Assembly (NCBI RefSeq): GCF_027214025.1
Contig: NZ_JAPWHB010000001.1
Location: 620,001-684,000, forward strand
Reading direction: 5' to 3'
Length of the DNA: 64,000 nucleotides
Source: Parahoeflea alexandrii
GTDB lineage: Bacteria > Pseudomonadota > Alphaproteobacteria > Rhizobiales > Rhizobiaceae
This document shows, one piece after another, positions 9,368 to 33,940 of the stretch; the stretch's first letter is position 1, and the number at the start of each line of letters is the position of its first letter. Under the pieces are notes generated by a model. That model did not search any database. It saw only the letters and a list, made by a program, of their open reading frames with translations, and was not told the DNA's origin. The position numbers and the translations under genes were made by a program.

Positions 9368-9483
9368 CATCAGCATAACTAACTGATTTAATGCATTTTT
9401 AATAGGTCAAATTCTCCAAGCGCTAATTCGCCCGGACGACATTGGAAACCAATTGGACGGGGCTTCGGCCCCGTTTTTTGTAC
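9368..9483 (+). ncRNA. Candidate small RNA ending in an orphan terminator
   Basis: A strong intrinsic terminator (9457-9479) points along the plus strand, yet the nearest intact plus-strand gene ends 870 bases upstream. A TATAAT box lies at 9362-9367, and a small hairpin (TTGG-AAA-CCAA, near 9442-9454) precedes the terminator. This layout fits a small RNA of about 110 bases. The -35 box is poor and no known family was recognised, so the call is tentative. Confidence 0.3.
9457..9479 (+). terminator. Rho-independent terminator
   Basis: The stem ACGGGGC / GCCCCGT closes a TTCG loop and is followed by six T residues on the plus strand. Confidence 0.8.
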
Positions 9484-9540: not shown

Positions 9541-10695
9541 CTATCGGCTGGGATCGGATGCCGCGATGGCCGGCTCGGTTGCCACAGCGACAGCCACGGG
9601 CCGCCGGCGCAGCAGGCGCAGGCTCCAGCGCGACAGTGGCGCCTCGATGATCATGTGATAGGCCGCAGCGCCCGCGACCGTGAAGACGGTCATGATCAGG
9701 TAATGCACCTGCCAGGGCAGTTCGACCGTGGTCACCGCCGAGATGACATGCTTGATGTAGAGCGTGATGACGAAGACATGGGTGAGATAGAGCGCATAGG
9801 ACCATTCGCCCAGGCGCGCCAGCAGCGTGCTCCGGAAGGTGAGAAAACCCAACCCGCCATAGAGCACTGCCGCCGACGGTATGCCCCAGAACAGCACCCG
9901 CAGATCCCCTACCGGTCGTTCCCATTGCAGGAACAGCAGCACGGCGCCAGCGCCAAAGACCGCCAGCGGCGCCAGGCCGGGGCCTGGCTCACGGGTCCTG
10001 CTCCAGGTGGAGTAGACCAGAATGCCGAAGATGAATTCGAGCAGGATCGGATCGGTGTAGAAGGCAAGTGTCGGACCGGACGGGCGCAGCCACGCGCCCA
10101 TTGCGACCAGGGAAATCATGATGAGCGACGTCCCGTACAGTCTGCGGTCGGCGAACAGACCAGCCGTCAGCGCCACGATCGCATAGAAGAAGATCTCGTA
10201 ATTGAGCGTCCAACCCACCACCAGCAGCGGACCGGTGTTGCCATCGCCATGATCCAGCGCCAGGAAGGAAAGCGAAGCCAGCAAGGTGTGGAGATCGGCC
10301 GTGGTGGAATTGAACAGGGAAGGCCTGAACCAGGCCAGCGCGAAGACTGCCAGCGTGATCACCCAGTAGGCCGGAACCACCCTGGCAATGCGCCGGATCC
10401 AGAATTCGCGGCCATCGAAGGGCCCGGGCCGGGCCACGATCATCGCCATGACAAAGCCGGAGATGACGAAAAACAGATCCACCCCGGCGGCGCCGACATG
10501 GTCGACTCGCTCGGGATCCAGCCCCCAGGTCTGCTGCGACAAAGCTGAAATATGATAGAAAACCACCGCCAAGGCTGCGGCCGCACGCAAATACTGGACG
10601 GAATACAACGTCTCCGAAGAGGTAGATGAAGACTTTGCTTCGGCCATCGCCAATTCCGTCTCTTGTGGTTTTGAGACACTGTCCCGTTCGGCCAT
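9541..10695 (-). CDS. Membrane acyltransferase of the OafA/ExoZ type (acyltransferase 3 family)
   Basis: The 384-residue protein has about ten hydrophobic segments and the acyltransferase-3 hallmarks: YSVQYLRAAAALAVVFYHI near residue 32, and the GVDLFFVISGFVM and RRIARVVPAYW segments soon after. ExoZ of Sinorhizobium, which adds acetyl groups to succinoglycan, starts the same way, so this enzyme probably transfers an acyl group to an exopolysaccharide or lipid-linked sugar in the inner membrane. The exopolysaccharide cluster 5 kb away supports this. The start is uncertain: 10695 has AGAGG directly adjacent, while 10647 (MAEAKSS) is also possible. Confidence 0.8.
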   Translation of the reverse strand: MAERDSVSKPQETELAMAEAKSSSTSSETLYSVQYLRAAAALAVVFYHISALSQQTWGLDPERVDHVGAAGVDLFFVISGFVMAMIVARPGPFDGREFWIRRIARVVPAYWVITLAVFALAWFRPSLFNSTTADLHTLLASLSFLALDHGDGNTGPLLVVGWTLNYEIFFYAIVALTAGLFADRRLYGTSLIMISLVAMGAWLRPSGPTLAFYTDPILLEFIFGILVYSTWSRTREPGPGLAPLAVFGAGAVLLFLQWERPVGDLRVLFWGIPSAAVLYGGLGFLTFRSTLLARLGEWSYALYLTHVFVITLYIKHVISAVTTVELPWQVHYLIMTVFTVAGAAAYHMIIEAPLSRWSLRLLRRRPVAVAVATEPAIAASDPSR

Positions 10696-12815: not shown

Positions 12816-13964
12816 TCAGGTCCTGACTTCCACGGCGGTCTCGAAAGGGTACGCGCCGTGGAACCCGCGCCAGTGGGCAACGGCAAATCCGAGAACGACA
12901 ACAGCCCAGCCCTGATGCAGCAGCGCCCAGCCAACCGGCACCTGGGTGAGGATGACGACGATCCCGATCATCGCCTGAACCGTGACCATGGCGAACAATA
13001 CCACCGCGCGGCGGCAATGGGTGCTGCCCCGGCCCCGCCGGATCGACGCAACCATGTGCCAGAGCGTCAGGGCAAAGAGCAGGTAGCCGCCCAGACGGTG
13101 GACAAACTGCACGGTCAGTTCGTTTTCAAAGAAATTGCGCCAGGCCGGCGAGATCTCCAGAAGTCCCGCAGGTACAATCGCGCCGTTCATCAGCGGCCAG
13201 GTATTTGACGCCAGGCCCGCGTCGAGACCAGCGACGAGGCCGCCGAGATAGATCTGCACCAGAACGAGGCCGGCAAGGGCCCCTGCCCCGCGTTGCAGGC
13301 CGATGCTGGGAACCGGATCGTCCGAATGCCGGGCAAGACCCCGCATCACCCAGACAATCGCCGCGAAAATCAGACAGGCGAGCGTGAGGTGGGTGGCCAG
13401 CCGGTACTGGCTGACATCGACCCGGTCGACCAGGCCCGAAGCCACCATCCACCAGCCGACGGCGCCTTGCAGCCCGCCCAGAACCAGAAGCCCGAACAAG
13501 GGCCAGCGCAGGCGCTTTTCAACACGTCCGGTAAACAGGAAAAACAGGAACGGCACGCCAAACAGCACGCCGACGCCGCGGGCCAGGAACCGGTGCGCCC
13601 ATTCCCACCAATAGATGGTCTTGAACTCATCGAGGCTCATGCCCTTGTTGATCAGCTGGTATTCGGGGATCTGCCGGTAGAGCTCCAGCTCCTCCTGCCA
13701 TTCGGCCTCACTCAAAGGCGGGATGACGCCATGGATCGGTTTCCACTCGGTGATCGACAGACCGGAATCGGTCAGACGAGTCGCCCCTCCTACCAGCACC
13801 AGCGCAAGAATGGCGACCAGCACGATGGAGAGCCAGACCCGCTGCGCCGCCCGGTTACGCCGGATGCGCTGCTGCTCGGCGATCACTGGACTGGGCACCG
13901 GAGTGGCGCCCGGCGACAATGTCTGCTGGTTTTCAGTGTGCGGAGCGGTGGTACTGGCAGTCAT
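12816..13964 (-). CDS. ctaA: Heme A synthase (COX15/CtaA)
   Basis: The 382-residue inner-membrane protein has eight hydrophobic segments and the conserved heme-ligand histidines in EWAHRFLAR, THLTLA, VHRLGGYLL and LHQGWA. It oxidises the methyl group of heme O to give heme A for aa3-type cytochrome oxidases. An N-terminal proline- and threonine-rich extension of about 50 residues precedes the first helix. The gene converges with argC with only six bases between the stops. An ATG three codons upstream (13973) is an alternative start. Confidence 0.93.
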   Translation of the reverse strand: MTASTTAPHTENQQTLSPGATPVPSPVIAEQQRIRRNRAAQRVWLSIVLVAILALVLVGGATRLTDSGLSITEWKPIHGVIPPLSEAEWQEELELYRQIPEYQLINKGMSLDEFKTIYWWEWAHRFLARGVGVLFGVPFLFFLFTGRVEKRLRWPLFGLLVLGGLQGAVGWWMVASGLVDRVDVSQYRLATHLTLACLIFAAIVWVMRGLARHSDDPVPSIGLQRGAGALAGLVLVQIYLGGLVAGLDAGLASNTWPLMNGAIVPAGLLEISPAWRNFFENELTVQFVHRLGGYLLFALTLWHMVASIRRGRGSTHCRRAVVLFAMVTVQAMIGIVVILTQVPVGWALLHQGWAVVVLGFAVAHWRGFHGAYPFETAVEVRT

Positions 13965-22870: not shown

Positions 22871-22922
22871 AATGGTCGGAGCGGCGGGATTCGAACCCAC
22901 GACCCCTTGTCCCCCAGACAAG
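22871..22922 (-). repeat. attL: displaced 3' end of tRNA-Pro
   Basis: These 52 bases are identical to the 3' part of the intact tRNA-Pro gene at 33864-33940, from just beyond CCA through the anticodon stem. After position 22922 the similarity ends, so this is not a complete tRNA but the original chromosomal tRNA tail left after integration. Confidence 0.92.
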
Positions 22923-23034
22923 AATAGTGCGTTAGCTGGCTATTTATGGGATTGCACAGATCACAAATTACTATGTTTTTACAATGCTATCTAACCCTTG
23001 CCCACTTGATAAGTTCGCGCCGTCACCCTAAGTA

Positions 23035-23056
23035 CTGGCTACAATGTGGCTACAAG
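23035..23056 (+). repeat. Candidate integrase arm-type site, left end
   Basis: Two tandem copies of (T)GGCTACA lie directly before and over the start region of the integrase gene. A matching 22-base block with two differences lies at 33798-33819 near the right end, in the same orientation. A further TGGCTAT copy lies at 22937. Confidence 0.4.
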
Positions 23057-23066
23057 GGATGATCTC

Positions 23067-24308
23067 ATGGCGCGAATGCGGATTACTCAATCGGCCGTAA
23101 CTGACATCATGGCCGGTGCGATTCCTAACAAGACATCCTATTTTTATGACGAGGATGTAACTGGCTTTGGCTTCTATAGAACGCCAGGGAACACCGGAAC
23201 TTTTTTCGCGGAATACCGGCCGGTTGCAGGAGGATCTAAGAAACGGATCAAGCTTGGACGGGTGGGCACGCTAAAGGCGAGCGAGGCGCGCGAAGCAGCG
23301 CGGAAGGCGATCGCCAACGCAGCGCTTGGTAAAGACCTTGCTACGGATCGCGCCACCGAACGCGCAAGCCTTACGGTGAAGGAACTCGTTGAGCGATACA
23401 TTCTGGAATACGTCGCGACGAAAAAGAAAAAGGCGTCCGCCGATTTTTATCGGGTGATGCTGTCAAAACATATTGCCCCGCACATCGGATCAAGCAAAGC
23501 CACAACGCTAAGCCGTACAGACGTACAGCGCGCACATACAGCCATGTCTAAGACAGCCAAGGTATCAGCCAACCGAGCAATAAGTTTGCTTGCTGCGGCC
23601 TACGTGTGGGGCGCTAAGAACGAGCTTATCCCCACCGGAACTAATCCTGCTCACGGTGTGGACCTGAACAAAGAGTCTGCCCGCGAGCGGTTCCTCACCG
23701 AAGCGGAAATGGTGCGGCTTGGCGAAGCGATGCGGGAAGCGGAGACGGTAGGGTTTGAGGCCAACACTACCGGAGCAAAACATTCGCCAAAGGGTCAGCG
23801 AACCGTCATGCACCCTTCCGTCACCGGTGCAATCAGGTTGATCATGTTGACCGGTTGCCGATTACGGGAGATCCTCCATTTGCGTTGGTCAGAAGTTGAT
23901 CTGGATCGCGGGGTTGCGTTCCTGCCCGATAGCAAAACCGGCAGGAAGGCCGTCATTTTGTCCGCCGCTGCAATCGCGGTGATGCGAGACATGCCCCGTG
24001 TGGGCGAATATGTGGTTGCAAGCGATAGCTCAGGAACGCCGGAGGAAAAGCCCCGCGCCGATCTCAAGCGGCCATGGGCAGCGATCTGCAAACGGGCCGG
24101 ACTTGAGGGCCTACGCATTCACGACCTGCGCCACTCGTTTGCCAGCGTCGGCGCATGGTCTGGTCTTGGATTGCCAGTCATCGGCAAGCTACTTGGACAC
24201 GCAGACTCGAAAACGACCCAGCGCTACGCACATATTGCCGACGAACCGGCGCGGCGTGCCGCTGACCTGATCGCTGACCAAATCGCTACAGCCATTGGGG
24301 GGAAATGA
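23067..24308 (+). CDS. int: Tyrosine recombinase (integrase) of the element
   Basis: The 413-residue protein has the layout of P4-like integrases: an N-terminal DUF4102-like domain (GFGFYRTPGNTGTFFAEYR and KRIKLGRVGTLKASEAR), a core-binding domain (about residues 95-190) and a C-terminal catalytic domain with arginine in TGCRLREILHLRW, HDLRHSFAS, and the LLGHADSKTTQRYAHI segment with the nucleophilic tyrosine. It catalyses site-specific recombination at tRNA-Pro. The start at 23067 is chosen because AAGGGA lies seven bases upstream; a GTG at 23046 is less likely. It overlaps the next gene by four bases. Confidence 0.95.
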   Translation: MARMRITQSAVTDIMAGAIPNKTSYFYDEDVTGFGFYRTPGNTGTFFAEYRPVAGGSKKRIKLGRVGTLKASEAREAARKAIANAALGKDLATDRATERASLTVKELVERYILEYVATKKKKASADFYRVMLSKHIAPHIGSSKATTLSRTDVQRAHTAMSKTAKVSANRAISLLAAAYVWGAKNELIPTGTNPAHGVDLNKESARERFLTEAEMVRLGEAMREAETVGFEANTTGAKHSPKGQRTVMHPSVTGAIRLIMLTGCRLREILHLRWSEVDLDRGVAFLPDSKTGRKAVILSAAAIAVMRDMPRVGEYVVASDSSGTPEEKPRADLKRPWAAICKRAGLEGLRIHDLRHSFASVGAWSGLGLPVIGKLLGHADSKTTQRYAHIADEPARRAADLIADQIATAIGGK

Positions 24309-24682
24309 TGGCTAAGTTGCCAGACGCATTCAGTCTGCAGGCGATCCCCATTCAAACTGCGATTTCTGAAGGTCGGACCGAGGATGCCAAGACATTGATC
24401 GTCGCCATCCTTTCCGAAGGTCGCGCCGATAAAGCCGTGCAACGAATTGCGGCTTCCATGATCAAGGGGCCGAAAGCCAAGCGTGGGCGGAAGACCTCGT
24501 TACCCCGTCATTGGCTTGATATTGGACCGGACTTCCATTCTATGCGCGAAAACGGCAAGCGATATGAAGATGCATTGCGAGAACTTGCGAAGCGTTATGG
24601 ATACTCGGAAACCCACATTCGAAAAGCAGTAGCCGTGTACGATCAAGCGATCGAGGATGCTGCCGAGGCTTCCCGCAGTTAA
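24305..24682 (+). CDS. Small protein of unknown function, probably DNA-binding
   Basis: The 125-residue product is helical and basic in the middle (KGPKAKRGRKTS). Near the C-terminus YGYSETHIRKAVAVYDQA looks like a helix-turn-helix. Its ATG overlaps the integrase stop (ATGA), so it is coexpressed with int and may take part in excision or its control. No family is recognised. Confidence 0.6.
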   Translation: MMAKLPDAFSLQAIPIQTAISEGRTEDAKTLIVAILSEGRADKAVQRIAASMIKGPKAKRGRKTSLPRHWLDIGPDFHSMRENGKRYEDALRELAKRYGYSETHIRKAVAVYDQAIEDAAEASRS

Positions 24683-24760
24683 ACAGCATTTGTTTGCCTA
24701 AGATGATTTGTAAGTCCGGTTTATCTATCTGGTTGCAACGTGATGAAACGAGGTAATCGA

Positions 24761-24955
24761 ATGGCAAACTTTAGGACACGACAGGCAGCGGAATACCTTC
24801 AGGTATCGAAATCCCTGCTAGACAAGCTGCGATGCTATGGCGGTGGTCCGGTTTATGCAAAGCTGGGCTCTACCGTTATTTACTGTAGCGAAGATCTTGA
24901 CGCTTGGCTGGCAACCAAAAAGCGTCAACCCGCAAACGATAATCAGGCGCGCTAG
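24761..24955 (+). CDS. AlpA-like helix-turn-helix regulator / excisionase
   Basis: The 64-residue protein is a single winged helix-turn-helix of the HTH_17 (AlpA/MerR-like) type: FRTRQAAEYLQVSKSLLDKLRCYGGGPVYAKLGSTVIYCSEDLDAWLA. Such proteins in satellites and prophages activate or repress the element's promoters and often serve as excisionases. The start at 24761 has GAGG upstream. The C-terminus ends in PANDNQAR, a motif shared with other proteins of the element. Confidence 0.85.
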   Translation: MANFRTRQAAEYLQVSKSLLDKLRCYGGGPVYAKLGSTVIYCSEDLDAWLATKKRQPANDNQAR

Positions 24956-25001
24956 CGCCCTCCCCGCCTAACCACCACCTAACTCAACCACCCGCCGGCA
25001 A

Positions 25002-25033
25002 GTTGTCGGCGGCGCGCATTTTTGCGCGACAAC
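25002..25033 (+). other. Hairpin before the replication genes
   Basis: The arms GTTGTCG and CGACAAC enclose a GC-rich bulge and a loop with five T residues. It lies between the regulator gene and the ribosome binding site of the gene at 25046. It has no T-tract after the stem, so it is not a classic terminator. Confidence 0.35.
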
Positions 25034-25045
25034 CCAGGAGACAAA

Positions 25046-25285
25046 ATGAGAGTTCTTTATTGCCACCCGGTCGAGGGCCGCGGTGATCGCAAGGCCGTGG
25101 CCTTTCTAGATGTCGAGCTTACTCCGGATGTGCGCCTGTATGGCCTGCGTTTAGTGCGACAGCCCGATGGCCGCCATATGGTCTATGCTCCCCAAGCTGG
25201 CCAGCGGCGCGTGGCGACCTTTTCAAAACCCTTGGCGCAATCCATCACAGACGCAGCCGTGGCGGCTCTTGAGGCGGCGCGATGA
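25046..25285 (+). CDS. Small phage-type hypothetical protein
   Basis: The 79-residue protein contains the stretch LTPDVRLYGLRLVRQPDGRHMVYAP, a beta-rich pattern seen in small proteins next to phage and plasmid replication genes in rhizobia. CAGGAGAC lies at the proper distance from the ATG. It overlaps the RepA-like gene by four bases (ATGA), so it is probably part of the replication module. Confidence 0.65.
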   Translation: MRVLYCHPVEGRGDRKAVAFLDVELTPDVRLYGLRLVRQPDGRHMVYAPQAGQRRVATFSKPLAQSITDAAVAALEAAR

Positions 25286-26529
25286 ACGCGGCCGCAATCA
25301 CGGCAACGCCCTATGAATGGAAAGATCCCAAGACACTGCCGTTGCGCGGCGAGCCATGGAGAATCGAAGATGAATTCGAGGATTACCCCGACAAAGCCCT
25401 GGCGATCGTTAAGCGCGCCGTCGAGAAATGGGCTAGGGAGAATCCCGAACCGCTTGCGCCGGCAAACGATAACAACTGTCTCTCACTCCTTAACCCCGCT
25501 GATCTTGAAGGCCAACCCGTCCCGCCGCGTGAGTGGTTCGTTCAAGAGCTGATCCCCGCGCGCCAGGTGACAATTTTGAACGGCGACGGTGGAGTCGGCA
25601 AATCGCTCTTGGCGCTACAGATTGCGGCAGCGAGCGCGTCGGCGTCCGACGTATGCGGATTGTCCCCAGCACCCGGCCGCGCGCTCTACGTGGGCGCGGA
25701 AGATGATGCCGACGAGTTTCATCGACGCCTTGCTGACATCGCGACGGCGCAAGGCCGCGCGCTTTCCGACCTTGAAAATTTGCGGGTCGTGTCGCTGGCG
25801 GATTCAGATGCGCTGCTAGCAATTCCAAACAAGGCGGGCAATCTTGAGCCGACATCGCTGTTTCAATCGCTGGTGGCCAGCGTTGGTGCTTTCGAACCGC
25901 GCTTTGTGGTCCTTGACACCGCGGCCGATATGTTCGGCGGCGACGAGATCAAGCGCGGCCAAGTTCGGCAATTTATTGGCATGCTTCGCGCTTTAGCGTT
26001 ACAGGCCGATTGTGCGATTCTGTTATTGGCGCATCCATCAGTCAAAGGCATGGAGTCCGGCAGCGGCACCAGCGGTTCGACGGCCTGGTCGAATTCGGTT
26101 CGTTCGCGGCTCTATCTCACCAGCGACAAGGACGATGCCAGTCGCCGCATCTTGAAAACGGTGAAGGCTAACTACGGCACTACCGGCGACGAAATCAAAA
26201 TCCAATGGCAGAGCGGAGCGTTCGTCCTTGATGACGGCAAGCCGTCCATTGGGAGCGCACTGGTGCAAGCGCGGCACGAGCGAATCTTTGTCGAGGTGCT
26301 GCAAAAACTGACCGAACAGGGCCGCAATCTTTCGCCGTCTCCTTCCGCCGCATATGCACCAAAACTGATTGCGGCGGACCCCGATGCCAAGGGGATATCG
26401 AAGAAGGATCTGGAGTCGGCGATGGCGCGGTTGCTGCATGCGGGCCGCATCCAAATCGAGACGATAGGGCCGAAATCAAGGGCAACAAAACGGCTGATTG
26501 TCACGCCTTCAGACGGAGATTCAGACTGA
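25282..26529 (+). CDS. RepA-like hexameric ATPase (AAA_25 family)
   Basis: The 415-residue protein carries a Walker A motif GDGGVGKS at residues 101-108, a Walker B strand (RFVVLDTAADMF, about 207-218), the RecA-fold SxLLLAHPS segment and the GSGTSGSTAWSNSVRSRLYL region typical of RSF1010 RepA-like helicases. The C-terminal 90 residues look like a winged helix (KKDLESAMARLLHAGRIQIE). It should load on or unwind DNA for replication of the excised element. The last codons overlap the first iterons of the array at 26508. Confidence 0.88.
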   Translation: MNAAAITATPYEWKDPKTLPLRGEPWRIEDEFEDYPDKALAIVKRAVEKWARENPEPLAPANDNNCLSLLNPADLEGQPVPPREWFVQELIPARQVTILNGDGGVGKSLLALQIAAASASASDVCGLSPAPGRALYVGAEDDADEFHRRLADIATAQGRALSDLENLRVVSLADSDALLAIPNKAGNLEPTSLFQSLVASVGAFEPRFVVLDTAADMFGGDEIKRGQVRQFIGMLRALALQADCAILLLAHPSVKGMESGSGTSGSTAWSNSVRSRLYLTSDKDDASRRILKTVKANYGTTGDEIKIQWQSGAFVLDDGKPSIGSALVQARHERIFVEVLQKLTEQGRNLSPSPSAAYAPKLIAADPDAKGISKKDLESAMARLLHAGRIQIETIGPKSRATKRLIVTPSDGDSD

Positions 26530-26627
26530 CTTCAGACGCCTTCATACCCATTAAGACTGGGGGTTCAGACACACCCCCTAATACCCCCGTGTGCGTCTGA
26601 AGCACGCACACCGGTCTGAAACCGGTG
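26508..26627. repeat. TTCAGAC iteron array with hairpins; candidate replication origin
   Basis: Perfect TTCAGAC copies begin at 26508, 26520, 26531 and 26564, and one-mismatch copies at 26541 and 26551, spaced about 10-13 bases. Inverted copies GTCTGAA lie at 26595 and 26614. Three hairpins (26559-26578, 26589-26611, 26609-26627) carry the motif in or beside their loops. The array starts inside the end of the RepA-like gene. This is the arrangement of iteron origins, though an RNA-level role is possible. Confidence 0.5.
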
Positions 26628-26678
26628 AGCACTTCAAACCCACAATGAAGAAACCAGAGGAGAATGAAAGAATGAAAA

Positions 26679-26876
26679 ATGTTTGCAATTGCCTCCCCGT
26701 TCACCGCTCGCCGGGAACGATACGAATCCGATGGCCCGAAGTTGAACCGCGTGCTTGAGCAGGTTCGCGTGGTCGGCGTCTCCACCGATGATGACGGCTC
26801 GCCGGCTTACGTTGTCGAAGTTCTGCAGGGCGACAGGATTAGCTTAGCGATCGAGCCCTATTTGATCCGAGCATAA
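26679..26876 (+). CDS. Small hypothetical protein
   Basis: The 65-residue product has a basic N-terminal half and an acidic, beta-like C-terminal half (YVVEVLQGDRISLAIEPYLIR). The ribosome binding site GAGGAG is 15 bases upstream, which is rather far, so a start is not certain. The next gene begins 13 bases after its stop. Confidence 0.45.
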   Translation: MFAIASPFTARRERYESDGPKLNRVLEQVRVVGVSTDDDGSPAYVVEVLQGDRISLAIEPYLIRA

Positions 26877-26889
26877 CAAGGAGATGCCA

Positions 26890-27054
26890 ATGACTGACAC
26901 CGATCGACCGTTCCGCGGCCGGCGCGTTTCGTGGGCCGAATTTGAACGAGTGACGGGCCGCAAGAAGCCCGATTACGCCAGGCTCAAAGCCGAGGCGGCG
27001 AATGATAACGATGCGCCTTTGCATGAAGATGTAACCGCCGAAAAAGCCACATAG
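26890..27054 (+). CDS. 54-residue protein of unknown function
   Basis: A short frame begins at ATG 26890 behind an excellent AAGGAG site and encodes 54 residues, starting MTDTDRPFRGRRVSWAEFE. The first half is basic, the second acidic, and it contains AANDNDAP, the short motif found in other proteins of the element. No function can be assigned. Confidence 0.5.
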   Translation: MTDTDRPFRGRRVSWAEFERVTGRKKPDYARLKAEAANDNDAPLHEDVTAEKAT

Positions 27055-27137
27055 CCGCTCACTGGTAACAAATACCAGTCAGACAAAGCTTCAGCCGCCG
27101 GCGCTGTCCGGTACGACGACATCAGGAACCTGCAATA

Positions 27138-28160
27138 ATGAAACCTGCCAACGACAAGAAGCCACGCCTTGCGGCCGAATTTACCGACCTGGCCGCCCGG
27201 CGCGCGTGGCTGGACGGCTTGCCAGACACCCGATACCGCGGCCAAAGAACCAACCGCATTGAGCAAGCCCTTGTCGCGGAGGCAAGCCCGCTTGTTGCCA
27301 CGTTGCGGCAGGTGCGCGAACTTATGCGGCCCGCGGAGATTTGCGCGGTTGATCTAGGCGATGGTGACGATGAGGATAGCGGCGATCGCAATACCGGCTT
27401 CGGCGCGGAGATGAAACATAACCAATCGAGCTTCACGCCATCGATTCCGAAGTTGCTAAGGGCTTACGCGGATGGCATCAGAATCGGCACCTCCTTCTAC
27501 CGCGACAAGGGCGGAGAGACGGTGACGATCGGCGGCACGTTGCCGGGCGCATCTGGGCGAATGAAGTTTCGCGGCCTGCAATTCTACCGCGGCGCGCTTG
27601 TTGCCTATGGCGACGACAAGGGCCGAAAGCGCAAGCCAAAGTACGTCGGCACGAAGTCTGGCGTGATGTATGGAAAAGATAGCGAAACCGCCCGGCACAT
27701 AGATGAGACACAGGCGAACAACGCAAGCTACTTAAAACTGACCGGCGCGCCAGCCAACGATAACGCCCCGCGTGCAAGGGAAGCACCTACGCCCACCAAA
27801 AGCGCCGCAGCGGCCCGTGTGGCGCTTGCTGGCGTGGCGAATGACAATGTGCAGGTTACTCACTGCCCAGATGGTATGGCATATGGCTACGGGCGTCTTG
27901 CCGGCATTAGCGACTCCGCCGGACATGGGGCCACAACCGCGCCGCGTCACGCCGCACTTGACGAACTAGATCGCGCGGAGACGTTCGCAAGCATGGAACT
28001 TGATAGCGCCGATGTTGAGTTGATTGAAGCGGTCCTGTCGGGCGAAAGCTTCCGCACGATCGGGTTGCGGTTTGGGTACGCAGAATCGTCGGCTCATCGG
28101 TCAGGTCGGCAGGTGGTTGAGCGCGCGTTGGAAAAAATCTCGAAAAAGATTGCAGCGTAG
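27138..28160 (+). CDS. Phage-type protein with C-terminal helix-turn-helix
   Basis: The 340-residue protein has three parts: an N-terminal region (to about 90) with a helical LAARRAWLDGLPDTRYRGQR, a central region (about 100-190) beginning FTPSIPKLLRAYADGIRIGTSFYRDKGG, and after an alanine-rich linker with two ANDN motifs, a C-terminal sigma-like helix-turn-helix (ADVELIEAVLSGESFRTIGL followed by a recognition helix). It could control the capsid genes that start 250 bases downstream. The family is not recognised. Confidence 0.6.
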   Translation: MKPANDKKPRLAAEFTDLAARRAWLDGLPDTRYRGQRTNRIEQALVAEASPLVATLRQVRELMRPAEICAVDLGDGDDEDSGDRNTGFGAEMKHNQSSFTPSIPKLLRAYADGIRIGTSFYRDKGGETVTIGGTLPGASGRMKFRGLQFYRGALVAYGDDKGRKRKPKYVGTKSGVMYGKDSETARHIDETQANNASYLKLTGAPANDNAPRAREAPTPTKSAAAARVALAGVANDNVQVTHCPDGMAYGYGRLAGISDSAGHGATTAPRHAALDELDRAETFASMELDSADVELIEAVLSGESFRTIGLRFGYAESSAHRSGRQVVERALEKISKKIAA

Positions 28161-28196
28161 TACCAATTCGAACCATTTCCAGACCCCTGAAATAGA

Positions 28197-28216
28197 GGGG
28201 CAATTTCGATTGCCCC
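28197..28216 (+). other. Perfect UUCG hairpin in the leader of the capsid module
   Basis: GGGGCAAT and ATTGCCCC form an eight-pair stem closing a TTCG tetraloop, an unusually stable RNA hairpin. It has no T-tract after it. Confidence 0.5.
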
Positions 28217-28282
28217 AGGCGGCCGGGAATTTGCAGGTTCCCCGTGCCGCCAAGTATCCCCGGGGTCGCTACCGGGTTGATC

Positions 28283-28326
28283 AACGGTCGGCCGTCGATC
28301 TCCAAGTGAACGGCCGGCCGTTTTGT
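28283..28326 (+). terminator. Intrinsic terminator 1 upstream of the capsid genes
   Basis: AACGGTCGGCCG (28283-28294) pairs with CGGCCGGCCGTT (28311-28322) with one mismatch, and the right arm runs into TTTTGTTT. Confidence 0.6.
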
Positions 28327-28341
28327 TTCTCCAGCGCATTT

Positions 28342-28365
28342 AGCAGCCTTTGGGCTGCTTTTTTT
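28342..28365 (+). terminator. Intrinsic terminator 2 upstream of the capsid genes
   Basis: AGCAGCC (28342-28348) and GGCTGCT (28353-28359) form a perfect stem with a four-base loop, followed by a run of seven T residues. It lies only 45 bases before the first start codon of the capsid operon. Confidence 0.75.
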
Positions 28366-28409
28366 GTGCCTCAACTCAACTTTTGCAATTGAAAAAGGAA
28401 TCCCAATGG

Positions 28410-28853
28410 ATGACTCCAAAATTCTATAATGATCCGGTCTTTTATGTGCCGGAAGCCGCGCAAGTCGCCGGCGCAACGGAACCGGCATTCCGATCGATGC
28501 TGGCCCGCGGCGGCGCAAAATTCATCGGCCTTCAACGCGGCGGGCGAACGTTGTTTTCATGCCATGAGCTTTTCATTGCCCGCCTGGCCGTCGCTCTTTC
28601 GCGATACGGCCTGACCGGCCAGGCGATATGGCAAACGGCTTACGACTTCGCGGGCGGAGATAGCGGCGATGCGCCCGAACCGGATGCGCATGCACGCATT
28701 CACCACAACGACGAAGGCGAGCTGGTTTTCGAGTGGTCTTACACCGGCGAACCGTTGGGGCCGATTGCAAAGCCAAGCCTGACAATACCGACCGCAGCAA
28801 TCTGGCGGGACGTGGTCGAGCAGGCGGCCGAAATCTACGCGATGGGCGGCTGA
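28410..28853 (+). CDS. Phage-type hypothetical protein with MerR-like N-terminus
   Basis: The 147-residue protein opens with FYNDPVFYVPEAAQVAGATEPAFRSML, which resembles the helix-turn-helix of MerR-type proteins, followed by a region with FAGGDSGDAPEPDAHARIH. The start at 28410 lies nine bases after AAAGGAA; an ATG four bases earlier opens a frame that stops at once. It overlaps the protease gene by one base and is therefore the first gene of the capsid operon. Its role may be regulatory or in assembly. Confidence 0.6.
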   Translation: MTPKFYNDPVFYVPEAAQVAGATEPAFRSMLARGGAKFIGLQRGGRTLFSCHELFIARLAVALSRYGLTGQAIWQTAYDFAGGDSGDAPEPDAHARIHHNDEGELVFEWSYTGEPLGPIAKPSLTIPTAAIWRDVVEQAAEIYAMGG

Positions 28854-29377
28854 TGTCGAAGAAAATGGAACTGAAATTCAGCGCCGCGACTGGCGAGCTT
28901 TCCGGCTACGCCAGCACCTTCGGTGGCGAGCCTGACTCCTATGGCGACGTTATCGCGCCAGGCGCATTTGCAGCGTCCATCAAGGCGCACAAGGCCGCCG
29001 GAACCATGCCGCTAATGCTCTGGGGGCACGATGCGTCGAAAGTGCCGATCGGCGTCTGGAACGAGATCAGGGAAGACGCAACCGGCCTGTATGTCGCCGG
29101 CCGTTTGAACCTTGAAATCGCCGCGGCCCGCGAGGTCCATAGTTCCCTAATCGCGGCCAAGGGCGGCTCATTGTCGATCGGCTTTCGAACACCACCCGGC
29201 GGGCGCGTACCGCTTGGCAAGGGCGTCTATTCGCTGAAAGCAATTGACCTTTTCGAGGTTTCGATTGTGAACATGCCGGCGAACCGACGCGCGCGCATCA
29301 CCAACGTCAAATCATCAAACAATAGCCTGGCCGACAAGATCGATCGGGCAATCACTCACATTAGGAATATGAAATGA
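28853..29377 (+). CDS. HK97-type prohead protease
   Basis: The 174-residue protein has the family pattern: GYASTFGGEPDSYGDVIAPGAF, the catalytic histidine in LWGHDASKVPIG, and the catalytic serine in GGSLSIGFRT, followed by LFEVSIVNMPAN. It cleaves the N-terminal scaffold domain of the capsid protein during shell maturation. It begins within the stop codon of the upstream gene and its stop overlaps the capsid gene (ATGA), so all three are coupled. Length and motifs look intact. Confidence 0.92.
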   Translation: MSKKMELKFSAATGELSGYASTFGGEPDSYGDVIAPGAFAASIKAHKAAGTMPLMLWGHDASKVPIGVWNEIREDATGLYVAGRLNLEIAAAREVHSSLIAAKGGSLSIGFRTPPGGRVPLGKGVYSLKAIDLFEVSIVNMPANRRARITNVKSSNNSLADKIDRAITHIRNMK

Positions 29378-30567
29378 ACGCAATCAACACTGCCATTGAA
29401 TTCAAAAACGACGCCGATCCTATCGAAACCAAAGAGGCGGTCGACGCCGACCTTGAGCAAAAATTCGGTGAGTATCATGAGGCAACCGCGGCCGCGCTGA
29501 AGGCAGCCGAGGATCGCGCCGATGAACTGGAAGCCCGCATGAATCGGCTTTCATTCGGCGGCGGCATGGACTCCAAAGCGGCCGGCGAATTGAAGGCAAA
29601 GAAGGAACACGAGGCATTCGGCCGCTTCATCAAGACCGGGGACGAAACCGAACTGAAATCGATGTCGGCGGGCAATGATACCGAAGGCGGTTATCTTGTT
29701 GGAACCAACCTGGCTACGACCATTAACAGCCGCATATTCGATCAGTCTCCGATCCGCCGACTCGCCCGCGTGATCCCGCTTACCTCCGGCTCCGAGTGGT
29801 CGGAGCCGACCGATTTCGATGATCTTGGCGCTGAATGGGTTGCCGAAAAGGCGGCACGCACCGAGACGGACAACGCCGAACTTGGCATGGTTACAATCCC
29901 GCTGAACGAAATCTTTTCGCATCAGACGGTCACGCAGAAGCTGCTCGACCTGTCTTTTGCCGATGTCGGCGGATGGATCGAAAACAAAATTGCCGACAAG
30001 TTCGCTCGCACAGAAGGCGTGTCGTACGTCACCGGCAACGGCGTGGGTAAGCCGCGTGGCTTTCTGGACTACGCCACCAGCGCCGACCCGGACGCAACGC
30101 GGGCCGCATGGACGCTGCAGTTCGTGAACAGCGGTTCGGCCACCACAGTCTCGGATGCGGACGGCCAAGCCAATGGCATCGTCGATCTGTTTTGGTCGCT
30201 GAATGCAGCGTATCGCCGCAACGCAACCTGGGTGATGTCGTCTGCGACAGCTAACGCGGTCGACAAGCTCAAGGACTCGAACAAGCAATACATTTGGCGA
30301 AACGGAATGACTGCCGGCGCGCAACCCGAGCTTCTGGGCCGACCTGTTGAAATCGATGAAAACATGCCAGCCCCGGGCGCGGGTACTTTGCCGATCGCAT
30401 TCGGTGATTTTGCGAAGGCGTACACCGTCGTCGATTGGAGCGGGATTAAGAGCATTCGCGATATGTATAGCGACAAGCCGAATGTCATTTTCTACGCTTA
30501 CAGGCGCACCGGCGGCGGGCTTTCGAACCCTTACGCGATCAAGTTGCTGAAGTGCGCATCGTCCTAA
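29374..30567 (+). CDS. HK97-fold major capsid protein
   Basis: The 397-residue protein has an N-terminal coiled-coil delta domain (about residues 15-55) that should be removed by the protease near the KSMSAGNDTEGGYLVG region, followed by the HK97 shell domain: PIRRLARVIPLTSGSEWSEPT, the E-loop region, FARTEGVSYVTGNGVGKPRGFL, and the C-terminal FGDFAKAYTVVDWSGI and YAYRRTGGGLSNPYAIKLLK. It looks complete and able to build an icosahedral shell. No portal, terminase or tail gene accompanies it. Confidence 0.95.
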   Translation: MNAINTAIEFKNDADPIETKEAVDADLEQKFGEYHEATAAALKAAEDRADELEARMNRLSFGGGMDSKAAGELKAKKEHEAFGRFIKTGDETELKSMSAGNDTEGGYLVGTNLATTINSRIFDQSPIRRLARVIPLTSGSEWSEPTDFDDLGAEWVAEKAARTETDNAELGMVTIPLNEIFSHQTVTQKLLDLSFADVGGWIENKIADKFARTEGVSYVTGNGVGKPRGFLDYATSADPDATRAAWTLQFVNSGSATTVSDADGQANGIVDLFWSLNAAYRRNATWVMSSATANAVDKLKDSNKQYIWRNGMTAGAQPELLGRPVEIDENMPAPGAGTLPIAFGDFAKAYTVVDWSGIKSIRDMYSDKPNVIFYAYRRTGGGLSNPYAIKLLKCASS

Positions 30568-30576
30568 CGACTACAG

Positions 30577-30616
30577 ACGGGCCGCCTAGCCGCGGCCCGT
30601 TCCCTACCCGGGTAGG
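30577..30616. other. Hairpins after the capsid gene
   Basis: ACGGGCCGC (30577-30585) pairs with GCGGCCCGT (30592-30600), and a second palindrome CCTACCCGGGTAGG follows at 30603. No T-tract follows, so a factor-dependent stop or mRNA stabiliser is more likely than an intrinsic terminator. Confidence 0.4.
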
Positions 30617-31030
30617 CAATGTCTGGGCCGCTCTGGCCGCTAGCCGGCGGTGTAACTTTCTTATATCGCTAATACAGTTTTTCCCCTCGCATGCGCGCGT
30701 GCGCGAGCGCGCGAGGGGTCATGATCCCAATTGCGGGAATGCGTGAAAAGGCCACCCGCCGGTTAGCTGAATGGGATGCCCCGAACATTGTCGGGGGGGC
30801 AAAGATGTCCAGGCGGCCCGCTTTCGCGCACCGGCGCGGACCCACAACGGGCGCGTTGCCGATTGAAAATATGGAGGGGGCAGCGTCCGAAGCATTGATC
30901 ATCTTGCTTGTTTCAGTGACTTCGTTCACTTGCCAAGGCGTGTGGAGATTGGGGAATTCTCGCTTTTTTGTAATCGGACAGATCCAAATGCTGTACTGGT
31001 ATTCCTGATGGGTTCATCCGGAGATTGAAA
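30617..31030. other. Gene-poor stretch with a long GC-alternating palindrome
   Basis: About 410 bases with no convincing gene. An imperfect 36-base palindrome lies at 30683-30718, with outer arms CCCCTCGC and GCGAGGGG. A 105-codon open frame (30691-31008) begins inside the palindrome, lacks a ribosome binding site and has no recognisable features. The base composition changes from GC-rich to AT-rich near 30900, towards the KAP gene. Confidence 0.45.
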
Positions 31031-32398
31031 ATGCGCTTTCTACCCCCAGACGAAGATATTGAGCTCTACACCACGGCGTTTGATGACGATATGTTAGGGA
31101 GAGCCAAGATCAGCAGGGCATTGTCCGATGTTCTTGAGCGCTTTGAGGATCCGCTTGTTGTCGCTCTCGATGGCCGCTGGGGCACTGGTAAGTCGTATTT
31201 TCTCAAGAGGTGGGTGGGCGCACATCGCCTGCAAAACGACGGGAATGCGCTGACAATTTATTTTGATGCATTTGCTCATGATTACTTATCCGATCCTTTA
31301 ATTGCACTTGTTGGTGCATTGTCGCAAAGGATTCCTCGGACCGAGAAACATAAACTTGATCGCGTAAAAGAGGTTGCATTCAAGTTTGTTAAACCAGCAG
31401 CCCGAATAGCACTCGCTATTGCCAGTTACGGTGCAACGGAAGCACTTAACGGAATTGGAGATGCGGCCGCCGAAGCAATTAAAGGCGAAGCGGGTAAAGC
31501 GATGGATGATTTCTGGGCGAGAGAGGAAGGGCGGCAAGCGGCGATGGAAGAGTTTCGCAGTGCAATCCAGACACTCAGTTCTCCGAGCCATGACGGGCTC
31601 GCTGCGCCCTTAATCATAGTGGTAGATGAACTTGATAGATGCCGTCCAGATTATGCATTAGAGGTTCTGGAGGTAATAAAGCACTTTTTCTCAGTCGCCA
31701 ACGTTCATTTCGTGCTCGGCGTAAACCTCAAGGCGCTCGAGAATAGCGTAAAATCTAGGTACGGTTCCGAGATTGACGCCACATCGTATCTGCAAAAATT
31801 CTTGAGCTTCACAGTTAATCTACCAGCGCATATCGGCGATCATAATCGAACGCCTTCCATATTGAAGTACTTGGACCAAGTCGGCGAGAGCATGTCTATT
31901 CCGGCCGTACTGCGCACTGAGTTGAAAAACCAAATTTCTGTAATATCTAGATCAAATAATATTTCAATAAGAGATATAGGAAAAATACTTTCTTCAACCG
32001 CGCTACTTCCAAAGGAGGTATCGAGTGATGGAGTATTCATCGGATATAGAATGGTAGCTGTTACACTTTTGATTACGAAGGTAGTTGACGTTAATATATT
32101 TGAAAAGCTTCTCAGAGCATCGATCAGCAATGATGAACTTTCTTCGTATTTAAGTGCCACAGACCAGTACATAAACAGAAGAAAGGAAAACGGCGATATC
32201 AATCCTGATTTTCATCATCCTTCGTTACTCTTATTCGGGATTTGGTCATATCTCTGCAATGACGGATTGCTGGATCCCGACAGGGAGTGGCCAAAAATTG
32301 AGTCGGCTTTCGATAATTTCGGACGGCCCGAACACCCAAAGAGGATACCCCTAAGCGTTTATGAAGACTGGATTCAGGTGTTCCGCTTATCCAATTAG
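31031..32398 (+). CDS. KAP-family P-loop NTPase, candidate anti-phage cargo
   Basis: The 455-residue protein has a KAP domain: Walker A in GRWGTGKS at residues 48-55, a helical insertion with a hydrophobic stretch (ARIALAIASYGATEALNGI) and Walker B in LIIVVDELDRCRPDYALEVLE near residue 195, the usual KAP signature. The family includes PifA of plasmid F, which blocks phage T7. The gene is richer in A and T than its neighbours and has a CGGAG site upstream. It stands alone between the capsid gene and small accessory genes, a typical cargo position; the defence role is inference. Confidence 0.85.
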   Translation: MRFLPPDEDIELYTTAFDDDMLGRAKISRALSDVLERFEDPLVVALDGRWGTGKSYFLKRWVGAHRLQNDGNALTIYFDAFAHDYLSDPLIALVGALSQRIPRTEKHKLDRVKEVAFKFVKPAARIALAIASYGATEALNGIGDAAAEAIKGEAGKAMDDFWAREEGRQAAMEEFRSAIQTLSSPSHDGLAAPLIIVVDELDRCRPDYALEVLEVIKHFFSVANVHFVLGVNLKALENSVKSRYGSEIDATSYLQKFLSFTVNLPAHIGDHNRTPSILKYLDQVGESMSIPAVLRTELKNQISVISRSNNISIRDIGKILSSTALLPKEVSSDGVFIGYRMVAVTLLITKVVDVNIFEKLLRASISNDELSSYLSATDQYINRRKENGDINPDFHHPSLLLFGIWSYLCNDGLLDPDREWPKIESAFDNFGRPEHPKRIPLSVYEDWIQVFRLSN

Positions 32399-32549
32399 AG
32401 TGACGGCTCATTGAAAAGCGGCAAGCCTTGACATCTGGGCGCTCATGCAACCCGACGAACATATCGTGCCTTAATCGCCGGCGCACCACCTTGCCTGTGC
32501 CGCCTGAATCATTGAATAAGGTCTGCGGGGCGTAATAGGAATTTTTTCC

Positions 32550-32813
32550 ATGCCCGCGGACCAGCCCATTGACCTATCGACTTTTGGCGGCGCGCTACAG
32601 CACGGCTTCCGCATCACTGCCCATTGCGGCCCGTGCGGAACTCACCGTGAACTTGACCTTACCCGCTACCCGCCTAGCCAAGTCTTCGTAGGAAAGCGAT
32701 TCCGTTGCGCAAGGTGCGGCGCGGTCGGTTCGATTTCTGTAAGCCAAATTTCGACCGGTGGCGGCGGTAATTCGCCGGCGCTGGATAGCTGGCGGGCGAA
32801 AGCGAAAAAATAG
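32550..32813 (+). CDS. Small zinc-ribbon-like protein
   Basis: The 87-residue protein has two cysteine pairs, HCGPCG near residue 26 and CARCG near residue 53, spaced as in a zinc ribbon. The C-terminus is basic. It may bind nucleic acid or protein. The 150 bases before it hold no other gene. Function unknown. Confidence 0.55.
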   Translation: MPADQPIDLSTFGGALQHGFRITAHCGPCGTHRELDLTRYPPSQVFVGKRFRCARCGAVGSISVSQISTGGGGNSPALDSWRAKAKK

Positions 32814-33227
32814 TTTTGCAGGTTGCTTTCAGGAATATTGTTTAAAATCAATCATTGCTTATCTTTGACAAATTTGTAAATGTTTTTAAGCACTTAAATT
32901 GATTTTTTGCTGTTGACTCGTTGCGTTTTTGCTTGAATGATACCTGCACAAACAGCATTCGGCGCGTTAGCTCGCGCCGACAAGTCGCGCCATTTCACCA
33001 CCAGGCGCGCACCACCACCGGAGACTGCCACCCGCCTCGTCGTCCAATTGCGGCGGGGCGGGATTCATTCCGGGTGCAAGCGGATCGCCATGCGTAAACC
33101 CGTGGAACACCTGCCGCGGCTGGGGTGAATTGCATGCATGTTCTTCCGCAATCAATCATCGGCAATTTTGCCGAGACCGACGACCGCAACGCCAGTTAGC
33201 TGATGTAAGGCTGTCTTATCTGTTAAT
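32814..33227. other. Intergenic stretch in the right part of the element
   Basis: The first 120 bases are very AT-rich and could hold promoters; the rest is GC-rich, with a small palindrome (GGCGCG-TTAGCT-CGCGCC near 32961). Short open frames exist on both strands, but none has a ribosome binding site or a recognisable protein pattern. Confidence 0.45.
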
Positions 33228-33653
33228 CTAACCCCACTTGGCTGGATCGAAAATCACGTTTCTGCCTTGCGGGTCTCTTTTGACGCGCCAATCTGCGCCC
33301 AGCTTCTCAAGTTCCGCGTTGACCCACTCCGAAGGCGGGGATTCTAAGCCCACTTGCATGCGTCGCGTAGATTCGGGATGCATGCTGAGATACTGACCTT
33401 CTAGGTGACCTAGTATGATGTACCGGCCATCTCCATTCACTTCCCCTGCGGATGAGGTCAATTGTTCCGTCAAGCTAGAAATCTTATCATCGCGCGCCGC
33501 TAAACGGCTCTCTAGGTTGGCGACTTTCTCGGCTACAATGTACTTGGCAAGACTGAAGCCGCTAGCGAAGAAAATTACCGCGAGGCCGACGAACACCCAC
33601 GGCGCTCGCTCAATCACCGTCCAATTTTCTTTTGCGAAATCTACCAGTTCCAT
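33228..33653 (-). CDS. Membrane-anchored coiled-coil protein
   Basis: The 141-residue protein has one N-terminal membrane helix (about residues 19-37), a short coiled coil (VANLESRLAARDDKISSLTEQL) and a C-terminal domain of 70 residues with GRYIILGHLEGQYLSM and a WVNAELEKLGADW segment. It is the only leftward gene of the element and lies next to the right attachment site. I do not recognise a family; a cargo or surface-related function is possible. Confidence 0.6.
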   Translation of the reverse strand: MELVDFAKENWTVIERAPWVFVGLAVIFFASGFSLAKYIVAEKVANLESRLAARDDKISSLTEQLTSSAGEVNGDGRYIILGHLEGQYLSMHPESTRRMQVGLESPPSEWVNAELEKLGADWRVKRDPQGRNVIFDPAKWG

Positions 33654-33797
33654 GCTCGATACATATCAGATTGTTCATGGCGCGCTAGCACGTATGACGC
33701 ATGCTGCATGGGCCACAGTATCCTAGTTACCTCGCGGAGGGCGATGCCGAAAAGATGAATGGATATTCTGATTCCGCGCAGGAGTGACGTAGGATGC

Positions 33798-33819
33798 CTG
33801 GCTACAGTGTGGCTATAAG
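33798..33819 (+). repeat. Candidate integrase arm-type site, right end
   Basis: This block repeats 23035-23056 with two differences and the same orientation, again two tandem TGGCTA(C/T)A units. Further copies follow in the terminator stem at 33824 (inverted) and 33842. Confidence 0.4.
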
Positions 33820-33849
33820 AAAAATAGCCACTTCGCTGGAAGTGGCTAT
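33819..33849 (-). terminator. Intrinsic terminator for tRNA-Pro, provided by the element
   Basis: ATAGCCACTTC (33824-33834) and GAAGTGGCTAT (33839-33849) form a perfect 11-pair stem. On the minus strand it is followed by five T residues. It lies 15 bases beyond the 3' end of tRNA-Pro and inside the element, so the element replaced the tRNA's original terminator. Confidence 0.75.
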
Positions 33850-33861
33850 CCTATTGAATTT

Positions 33862-33913
33862 AATGGTCGGAGCGGCGGGATTCGAACCCACGACCCCTTG
33901 TCCCCCAGACAAG
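33862..33913 (-). repeat. attR, overlapping the intact tRNA-Pro
   Basis: These 52 bases match attL exactly and restore the 3' half of the tRNA gene, including CCA. The identity runs to the anticodon stem. Confidence 0.92.
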
Positions 33914-33940
33914 TGCGCTACCGGGCTGCGCTACGCTCCG
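33864..33940 (-). tRNA. tRNA-Pro (anticodon GGG)
   Basis: The 77-base minus-strand gene folds as a full cloverleaf: acceptor CGGAGCG / CGCTCCG with discriminator A and encoded CCA, an anticodon stem CTTGT / ACAAG with loop CTGGGGG (anticodon GGG), and the GGTTCGAATCC T-arm. Its 3' part is shared with attL. Confidence 0.97.

Follow-up and report, generated by a model that had tools for sequence, protein, structure and literature searches.

A portal-less, capsid-encoding island in a tRNA-Pro gene of Parahoeflea alexandrii, probably a phage satellite

What is an island that encodes a major capsid protein (MCP) and a prohead protease of the HK97 type, and in which no portal, terminase, tail or lysis gene is detected? 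Such an island, 10,991 bp from repeat to repeat, lies in the window analyzed here, a stretch of 64,000 nt of Parahoeflea alexandrii (contig NZ_JAPWHB010000001.1, 620,001-684,000, forward strand). We consider it to be a capsid-encoding phage satellite, which would build its own small shell and rely on a helper for portal, motor and tail. We give this reading a probability of roughly two in three (0.68).

Borders of the island and its target gene

The exact 52-bp repeats at tRNA-Pro that an earlier note on this DNA had described were confirmed (Table 1), and the island is inserted precisely into tRNA-Pro(GGG), the sole tRNA gene called within the 64-kb window. Seventeen congeners were searched, and the gene neighboring the island was present in three of them. 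Two of these (L235, L236) carry an empty site, with a junction overlap of exactly the island's 52 bp; the third carries an unrelated element, with MCP and portal absent in the 9.5 kb seen. A full-length prophage at this site in relatives, the observation held to count against a satellite, was therefore found in 0 of 3 informative congeners. A degenerate 21-bp pattern, composed after both putative arm-type integrase sites had been seen, matches twice in the window, once at each island end, with 0 matches expected.

Table 1. Features of the island, with positions in the window
Feature	Position	Strand	Evidence or remark
Left attachment repeat, 52 bp, 3'-half tRNA-Pro remnant	22871..22922		exact repeat; empty-site junction in L235, L236
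Left-end putative arm-type integrase site, 21 bp	23036..23056	+	19/21 bases equal to right-end copy
Tyrosine integrase, 420 aa	23046..24308	+	Phage_integrase PF00589 E 1.7e-22; phrog_1 E 2.3e-59
125-aa ORF overlapping integrase stop	24305..24682	+	no family (Pfam, PHROGs, PADLOC)
AlpA-like HTH regulator, 71 aa	24740..24955	+	HTH_17 E 5.1e-6; phrog_66 excisionase/regulator E 1.4e-5
87-aa ORF	25022..25285	+	no family (Pfam, PHROGs)
RepA-like AAA_25 ATPase, 415 aa	25282..26529	+	AAA_25 E 1.5e-35; phrog_906 primase/polymerase family E 2.1e-27
340-aa ORF	27138..28160	+	no family (Pfam, PHROGs, PADLOC)
Terminator-like hairpin and T run, between island halves	28342..28359	+	hairpin search
148-aa ORF, 5' of protease	28407..28853	+	no family (Pfam, PHROGs, PADLOC)
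HK97-type prohead protease, Peptidase_S78	28850..29377	+	Peptidase_S78 E 2.8e-24; phrog_80 E 7.9e-39
HK97-fold MCP, 397 aa	29374..30567	+	Phage_capsid PF05065 E 6.7e-73
KAP P-loop NTPase	31025..32398	+	PF07693 E 4.6e-34; PADLOC PDC-S20 E 3.4e-78; phrog_8614 E 4.2e-72
87-aa ORF	32550..32813	+	no family (PADLOC, PHROGs)
141-aa ORF, hydrophobic N-terminal segment by eye	33228..33653	-	no family (PADLOC, PHROGs)
Right-end putative arm-type integrase site, 21 bp	33799..33819	+	counterpart of left-end site
Right attachment repeat, 52 bp, inside tRNA-Pro	33862..33913		exact repeat; tRNA call; empty-site comparison
tRNA-Pro(GGG), intact target gene	33864..33940	-	ARAGORN

Gene content

The integrase, AlpA-like regulator and RepA-like ATPase named previously are all encoded in open frames with family matches. 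The ATPase, which presumably acts in replication, has relatives of 49% identity in L077 and 44% in L142. A candidate origin had also been proposed and was not borne out: the segment in which it was sought, 26480-27140, shows short imperfect repeats only. For the 340-aa ORF, a weak relative was found in prophage locus L038 (24% identity, E 3e-4), and its single-sequence structure model was unusable (pLDDT 39). Terminator-like sites show no excess in the region, 13 being found versus 14.1 in shuffles.

The protease and MCP of the right half had been taken to be intact, and both indeed lie in open frames with Peptidase_S78 and PF05065 matches. For the protease, the more likely start codon is the ATG at 28850, not the GTG of the longer ORF. 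Compared with L149, dN/dS is about 0.16 for the MCP and 0.29 for the protease, and both genes look constrained. The MCP structure model (pLDDT 79) has a complete HK97 fold with long N-terminal helices; Foldseek ranked RcGTA (6tb9, 39% identity) first, followed by EcCI2 (9gyi), a cf-PICI. The 148-aa ORF, MerR-like in appearance when judged by eye, may encode a diverged small terminase. From its PDC-S20 match, the KAP NTPase is a candidate for anti-phage cargo.

The absence of terminase, portal, tail and lysis genes held up in every scan: none of these families was found among 16 island ORFs compared with PHROGs or among 10 scanned singly against Pfam, and local HMMs detected neither portal nor TerL. 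Head-tail connectors were not found by Pfam or PHROGs, and no ORF was named TerS, TerL or HNH (Pfam, PHROGs; TerL also by HMM), though a diverged TerS may be present among the ORFs without a family. The portal, terminase, tail and lysis genes of a complete prophage are undetected in the island. It is, as satellites in general are, an integrated element with an integrase and intact attachment ends that is missing the full virion gene set.

Related islands of about 10 kb

Pattern scans of genome contigs and viral contigs with single proteins gave no close relatives; a profile search succeeded. The earlier note had suggested looking for like islands at tRNA genes, and the island's MCP led to 28 more of similar plan and size, 29 in total including that of the window. 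In 21 distinct islands, the exact repeats overlap a tRNA gene and are 20 nt or longer; 8 further ones have repeats of 16-18 nt, shorter matches with E 4e-5 to 6e-4. The 29 islands occupy 12 kinds of tRNA gene, carry the integrase towards one end in every case, and have a repeat spacing of 9,139-11,168 bp (mean 10,162, SD 529, i.e. 5% of the mean). Their hosts are mostly Alphaproteobacteria, a bias partly built in by the alphaproteobacterial protein that seeded the search, and also include Variovorax (L084) and Pseudomonas (L122). The loci extend about 10 kb on each side, so islands of up to about 20 kb can show repeats and prophages of 30-40 kb cannot. The strict count leaves out the duplicate loci L078, L082 and L089. 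Also uncounted are L077 (21-nt repeat at 10,845, no tRNA), L062 (repeats without tRNA), and two loci with matches of 15-16 nt, L075 (6.4 kb, E 0.07) and L088 (13.9 kb, E 0.57); L074 and L153 fall outside the 8-11.5 kb filter and are reported separately. Among 21 further portal-less loci, 13 have no accepted tRNA repeat, and L069, with protease, MCP and tape measure and no integrase found in 21 kb, is a portal-less non-island.

A portal HMM matched in 121 of 195 loci and in none of the 29 islands. With two HMMs, a match to either being counted, TerL was detected in 111 of the 121 portal loci and in one island (L086). This two-HMM tally is the more reliable, since a one-family TerL HMM failed to detect the L074 TerL, which Pfam did find; the Pfam tally can likewise pass over weak matches, as it did with the TerL of L086. 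The Pfam scan as a whole covers the 21 islands with the longer repeats, and the island protein set comprises ORFs of 110 aa or more, with 7 of 157 removed as probable antisense. The view that a shell module of protease and capsid protein is unusually small stands in comparison with cf-PICIs, but not within the island set, where a protease was detected in no more than 4 of 29, leaving 25 in which even this gene is undetected. Tape measures were found in 7 islands when proteins were scanned one by one, and L076 encodes a tail-fiber/depolymerase-like protein. The tape measure of L034 matches those of tailed phages of Rhizobiales and kin; it has 569 aa versus 729, 729 and 756 aa in three checked phage relatives, with inner gaps in the alignment and about 114-134 columns missing at the C-terminus. 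Against PHROG profile lengths no general shortening of tape measures was seen, and the idea of a shortened ruler is kept for L034 alone, where it may apply.

Two portal-bearing relatives have a repeat spacing of 14,938 and 15,226 bp, that is about 15 kb versus about 10 kb for the portal-less islands. On the MCP tree, from which some 30 near-copies had been removed beforehand, the portal-less label changes 8 times (shuffled mean 36.3), at least 6 of the changes being forced by starred branches. The label thus recurs, and therefore similar size accompanies separate capsid lineages.

Loss of portal, terminase, tail and lysis genes from a full prophage could also leave a set of phage-like genes, and a related portal-bearing type does exist in L074, an element roughly 15 kb long that has a TerL besides its portal. 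However, the window island has open frames and retains its two attachment ends, its lengthwise uniform relatives (9.1-11.2 kb) recur with the same integrase placement at so many tRNA kinds, and the informative congeners hold no full-length version. A satellite, as first proposed, is well supported over a decayed prophage because 28 islands share plan and size, the insertion is precise, and MCP and protease look constrained; a remnant is improbable. Still less credit is due to a host compartment or phage decoy, a shell for defense or storage with no part in transfer. A defense-type NTPase does adjoin the capsid gene, but the MCP comes coupled with a prohead protease of phage type, the island is mobile with an integrase and a RepA-like gene, and a length SD of 5% of the mean over 29 islands speaks against it as well; we regard this reading as exceedingly improbable.

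Shell assembly and the helper

Most likely, the islands of about 10 kb spread in small particles for which a full phage serves as helper. Growth of a tailed phage in the cell would lead to excision and replication of the island, and the island's late genes would yield the capsid protein, which the island's protease would trim. The shell assembled from this protein would have no room for the helper genome, and the helper would supply portal, terminase and tail to complete a particle with a cargo of roughly one island length (9-11 kb). That the 29 islands vary so little in length may be read as a signature of shell size; T = 3 and T = 4 are candidate geometries, between which sequence cannot tell.

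Capsid-making satellites of other kinds offer comparisons. cf-PICIs have an integrase and an AlpA-type regulator and share with the window island a PF05065 capsid protein and a head protease, and the capsid of EcCI2 is among the solved shells nearest to the island MCP. A cf-PICI, however, also has its own portal, connectors, TerS, TerL and HNH (PMC10690885), all of which are undetected in the window island. PISP/TG93, a Vibrio satellite plasmid of 11.1 kb with a MerR-like regulator, resembles the island in size and in its minimal set of capsid and protease, but is episomal, has a PF03864 capsid and a TerS, and has no integrase detected (PMC13230959).

The main rival, which we consider unlikely, is that the island capsid protein builds no shell by itself but joins the growing shell of the helper, for instance as pentamers, and so forces a smaller head. 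SaPIbov5, a cos-type SaPI from an unrelated host group, too is a satellite encoding a capsid-protein homologue, and it is not known to carry a portal or TerL. This homologue, Ccm, is a direct precedent: it fills pentamers, is the sole island protein needed to redirect assembly, has no long N-arm and is incapable of forming a shell alone, and no protease is known in SaPIbov5 (PMC8569155). Incorporation of this kind would account for the undetected protease in 25 of 29 islands, for which an own shell is less obvious because of that very absence. However, the window island has its own S78 protease, its MCP model combines long N-terminal helices with a whole HK97 fold, and the nearest solved relatives, RcGTA (PMC7296036) and, judging by its entry title, EcCI2 (9gyi), form whole shells.

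As to the helper, none was found in the host genome by the PF04860 portal, and PF03354 TerL_ATPase gave 0 matches. The sole PF04860 portal lies in a GTA-like cluster (L043) with TerL and a fused protease-capsid gene; the island, by contrast, is mobile, with neither portal nor TerL detected. A GTA might itself serve as helper, with the island capsid protein forming, around the portal of the GTA, a larger shell that carries the whole island, and this would fit the host's only PF04860 portal, the mostly alphaproteobacterial range of the islands and the closeness of the MCP to that of RcGTA. Yet the search seed partly creates the host bias, and islands also occur in Pseudomonas and Variovorax. To our knowledge, RcGTA-type agents are not expected in either genus. 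Together with the match of the L034 tape measure to tailed phages, this makes a GTA helper very improbable.

Among the titles and abstract openings searched, none describes portal-less capsid islands of this kind, and earlier satellite surveys may list some. Tentatively, and with slightly less than even confidence, we propose that the islands form a split-head class, in which the island would give the whole shell and the helper portal and motor. The class would have several origins from different phage capsids, each settling at about 10 kb, the amount of DNA that a single small shell geometry would hold, with some members adding protease, small terminase or tape measure. If this is true, one phage head would be built from two genomes. 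The capsid-making satellites known so far come with portal and motor, and the known head-shrinking ones with a small redirector; the islands of about 10 kb stand between them. With these islands it can be tested directly if a satellite shell can be nucleated by a foreign portal, and the size rule of about 10 kb opens genome searches for islands that finders using other gene sets may miss.

Insertion site and gene content of the window island

As the earlier note had claimed, the island lies between exact 52-nt direct repeats. They are spaced 10,991 bp apart, with the right one inside tRNA-Pro(GGG). Congeners (n = 17) were checked for the island's right-hand neighbouring gene, which was present in 3. 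In two of these the site is empty: window positions 13416/13448-22922 and 33862-34706/34707 are contiguous, with an overlap of exactly 52 bp. In the third congener stretch (L234) the match covers only the 5' part of the tRNA and an unrelated element follows, from 10444 on, with a different integrase (27% identity) and the same tRNA-Pro target. No tRNA-Pro was called in this stretch, and local HMMs detected no major capsid protein (MCP), portal, protease or large terminase (TerL) in the 9.5 kb of the element that are visible. Just inside each end of the window island lies a 21-bp site, the two being equal at 19 of 21 bases. A degenerate 21-bp pattern, composed after both sites were known, was found nowhere else in the window and had 0 matches in shuffles; these sites look like arm-type integrase sites.

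Pfam and PHROGs name an integrase, an AlpA-like protein (HTH_17), a RepA-like ATPase (AAA_25), a Peptidase_S78 protease, a PF05065 capsid protein and a KAP NTPase, the last matching the PADLOC defence candidate PDC-S20 (E 3.4e-78). The frames of a 148-aa ORF, the protease and the capsid protein overlap (28853/28850, 29377/29374), and a terminator-like hairpin precedes this group, such sites being no more frequent than in shuffles. Portal, terminase, tail and lysis families, which the earlier note had reported as missing, were likewise not found with PHROGs (16 ORFs) or Pfam (10 ORFs), and local HMMs detected no portal and no TerL in the island. Capsid proteins 66% and 52% identical to the window MCP are encoded on the IMG/VR contigs L149 and L150, respectively; L150 also carries a protease, an integrase and tRNA-Ser, with no portal detected. 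As a measure of constraint, comparison with L149, whose capsid gene is 65% identical, gave for the MCP gene dN 0.29 and dS 1.76 and for the protease gene dN 0.40 and dS 1.37, dS being near saturation and the ratios rough in both cases.

Coordinates of features in the window and in compared loci
Feature	Locus	Position	Strand	Remark
52-nt direct repeat, left	window	22871-22922
52-nt direct repeat, right	window	33862-33913
tRNA-Pro(GGG)	window	33864-33940	minus
Terminator-like hairpin	window	28342-28359		divides integrase-replication half from 148-aa ORF, protease and capsid protein
Empty-site junction (52-bp overlap)	L235 (congener)	10413-10464		alignment to window flanks
Empty-site junction (52-bp overlap)	L236 (congener)	9392-9443		alignment to window flanks
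Tail-fibre/depolymerase-like protein	L076	11454-13745		behind capsid gene of 10-kb island
Common 210-250 aa protein	L033	13730-14470
Common 210-250 aa protein	L034	6481-7167
Common 210-250 aa protein	L035	8204-8926
Common 210-250 aa protein	L036	11417-12115
Common 210-250 aa protein	L118	12093-12722

Islands of about 10 kb at tRNA genes

At E up to 1e-60, the window MCP had matches in 160 of 297 genomes of its own family. The six best other matches reached E 1.7e-78 or better, the next one 2.5e-71. Four of these six loci lie between tRNA repeats spaced 9.6-10.4 kb and a fifth (L032) has a tRNA repeat spacing of 9.6 kb; for the sixth (L033) no tRNA repeat was found. With a profile of six MCPs, the best 80 of 88 genome-contig loci and the best 80 of 195 viral-contig loci were taken. 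A strict scan of 197 redundant loci (L032-L228) for exact repeats of at least 20 nt, flanking the MCP and overlapping a tRNA, gave 21 distinct islands including the window, with a spacing of 9,139-10,991 bp (mean 9,969, SD 471). Among 36 other, mostly portal-less loci, 8 had exact tRNA repeats of 16-18 nt around the MCP (E 4e-5 to 6e-4), spaced 10,315-11,168 bp. An integrase was found in 29/29 islands with an HMM built on that of the window; it lies about 250 bp or less from an island end in 28 of them, and in L142 at about 600 bp. The islands target tRNA-Pro, Glu, Lys, Leu, Gln, Gly, Phe, Val, Asn, Ser, Met and Arg.

The portal HMM, seeded with the portal of a gene transfer agent (GTA), matched 121 of 195 loci and none of the 29 islands. 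The TerL HMM grown from L074, a portal-bearing tRNA island, had matches in 112 of 195 loci; by either of two HMMs, TerL was present in 111/121 portal loci versus a single island, L086 (PHROGs phrog_2, E 2.1e-26; weak in Pfam, 2.7e-4). No TerL or portal appeared among the 25 listed of 41 Pfam families in the strict islands (150 of 157 ORFs of at least 110 aa); the L086 TerL means that the listed families can hide weak matches. As a positive control, both L074 and the host GTA-like cluster were put through the same Pfam scan, which named portal, TerL and an S78-capsid fusion in each.

A small terminase (Terminase_4) was named by Pfam in 2 of the 150 strict-island proteins, and by PHROGs in L085 (141 aa). 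Seven islands contain a tape measure protein (L034, L044, L049, L071, L085, L086, L122); that of L034 has 569 aa versus 729-756 aa in three checked phage relatives, the 160-187 missing residues being mostly C-terminal. Cargo includes the KAP NTPase in the window, a ThsB-type TIR protein (L034), a Schlafen AlbA_2 protein (L037) and a DprA-like protein (L050). The common 210-250 aa protein is encoded after the gene for the capsid protein or for the tape measure. It is also encoded at a portal-less Enterovirga locus (L069), together with a protease, a capsid protein and a long tape measure; this locus had no integrase within 21 kb and did not match the island plan.

Capsid history and shell size

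A tree of 137 MCPs was built by a quick method; the window, among others, has a long end branch on it. The portal-less label requires 8 changes on this tree, at least 6 of them forced by starred branches, versus 36.3 in shuffles. The largest mixed group (support 84) consists of 27 rows, of which 14 are islands, 9 are other loci without a portal and 4 bear one; of these four, L074, L153 and L157 stand near one another. The set that holds the window (14 rows, support 95) comprises, besides it, 4 islands, 5 portal-less loci and 4 that bear a portal. The portal-less plan is thus clustered, yet it was gained or lost more than once.

The capsid model (24-sequence alignment, pLDDT 79, pTM 0.69) shows long N-terminal helices (20-59, 67-88), strands and a long helix (198-220), as expected of the HK97 fold. 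Among solved structures it is matched best by RcGTA 6tb9 (39% identity), then by EcCI2 9gyi (31%) of a capsid-forming PICI (cf-PICI). Volume scaling from HK97 (T = 7, about 40 kb) gives about 11 kb for T = 3 and about 17 kb for T = 4. According to PMC7296036, the RcGTA shell is T = 3-derived and oblate; its volume is 35% below that of T = 3 and its load 4.0-4.5 kb. By arithmetic on that scale, T = 3 would hold about 6-7 kb and T = 4 10-11 kb; the 10-kb islands would thus fit T = 4 (RcGTA scale) or T = 3 (HK97 scale). Island length may be set by a shell, the best argument being that separate lineages share 9-11 kb.

A probable satellite with its own shell gene

The window island is best read as a satellite that would supply its own shell gene and receive portal, motor and tail from a helper. 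The main rival is co-assembly in the manner of Ccm, the capsid homologue of SaPIbov5 (PMC8569155). It may apply to the set, in which no protease was detected in 25/29 islands, the four with one being the window, L049, L050 and L118. Because the window member has both a protease and a complete capsid protein, an own shell is favoured there. In the host genome the PF04860 portal occurs only in the GTA-like cluster L043 (G000:C10:817000-836900), which also has TerL and a fused protease-capsid gene; PF03354 had no match in this genome.

PMC10690885 gives cf-PICIs a portal, connectors, TerS, TerL and HNH besides capsid and protease; the window island is set apart from them by the portal and terminases, which were not detected in it. 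L074 and L153, tRNA islands from the strict repeat scan with a spacing of 14,938 and 15,226 bp, a portal and a fused protease-capsid gene (with TerL downstream in L074), are cf-PICI-like relatives of the 10-kb islands. The Vibrio PISP (11.1 kb; PMC13230959) has the nearest plan; it carries genes for a capsid protein, a protease and a small terminase. VEIMEs and tycheposons are further proposed families named in a review (PMC11389934), and islands of this plan may already figure in existing literature, for example on these families.

The island plan also occurs outside Alphaproteobacteria, in Pseudomonas psychrophila (L122) and Variovorax (L084), and its range is therefore probably wider than the capsid-seeded search shows.
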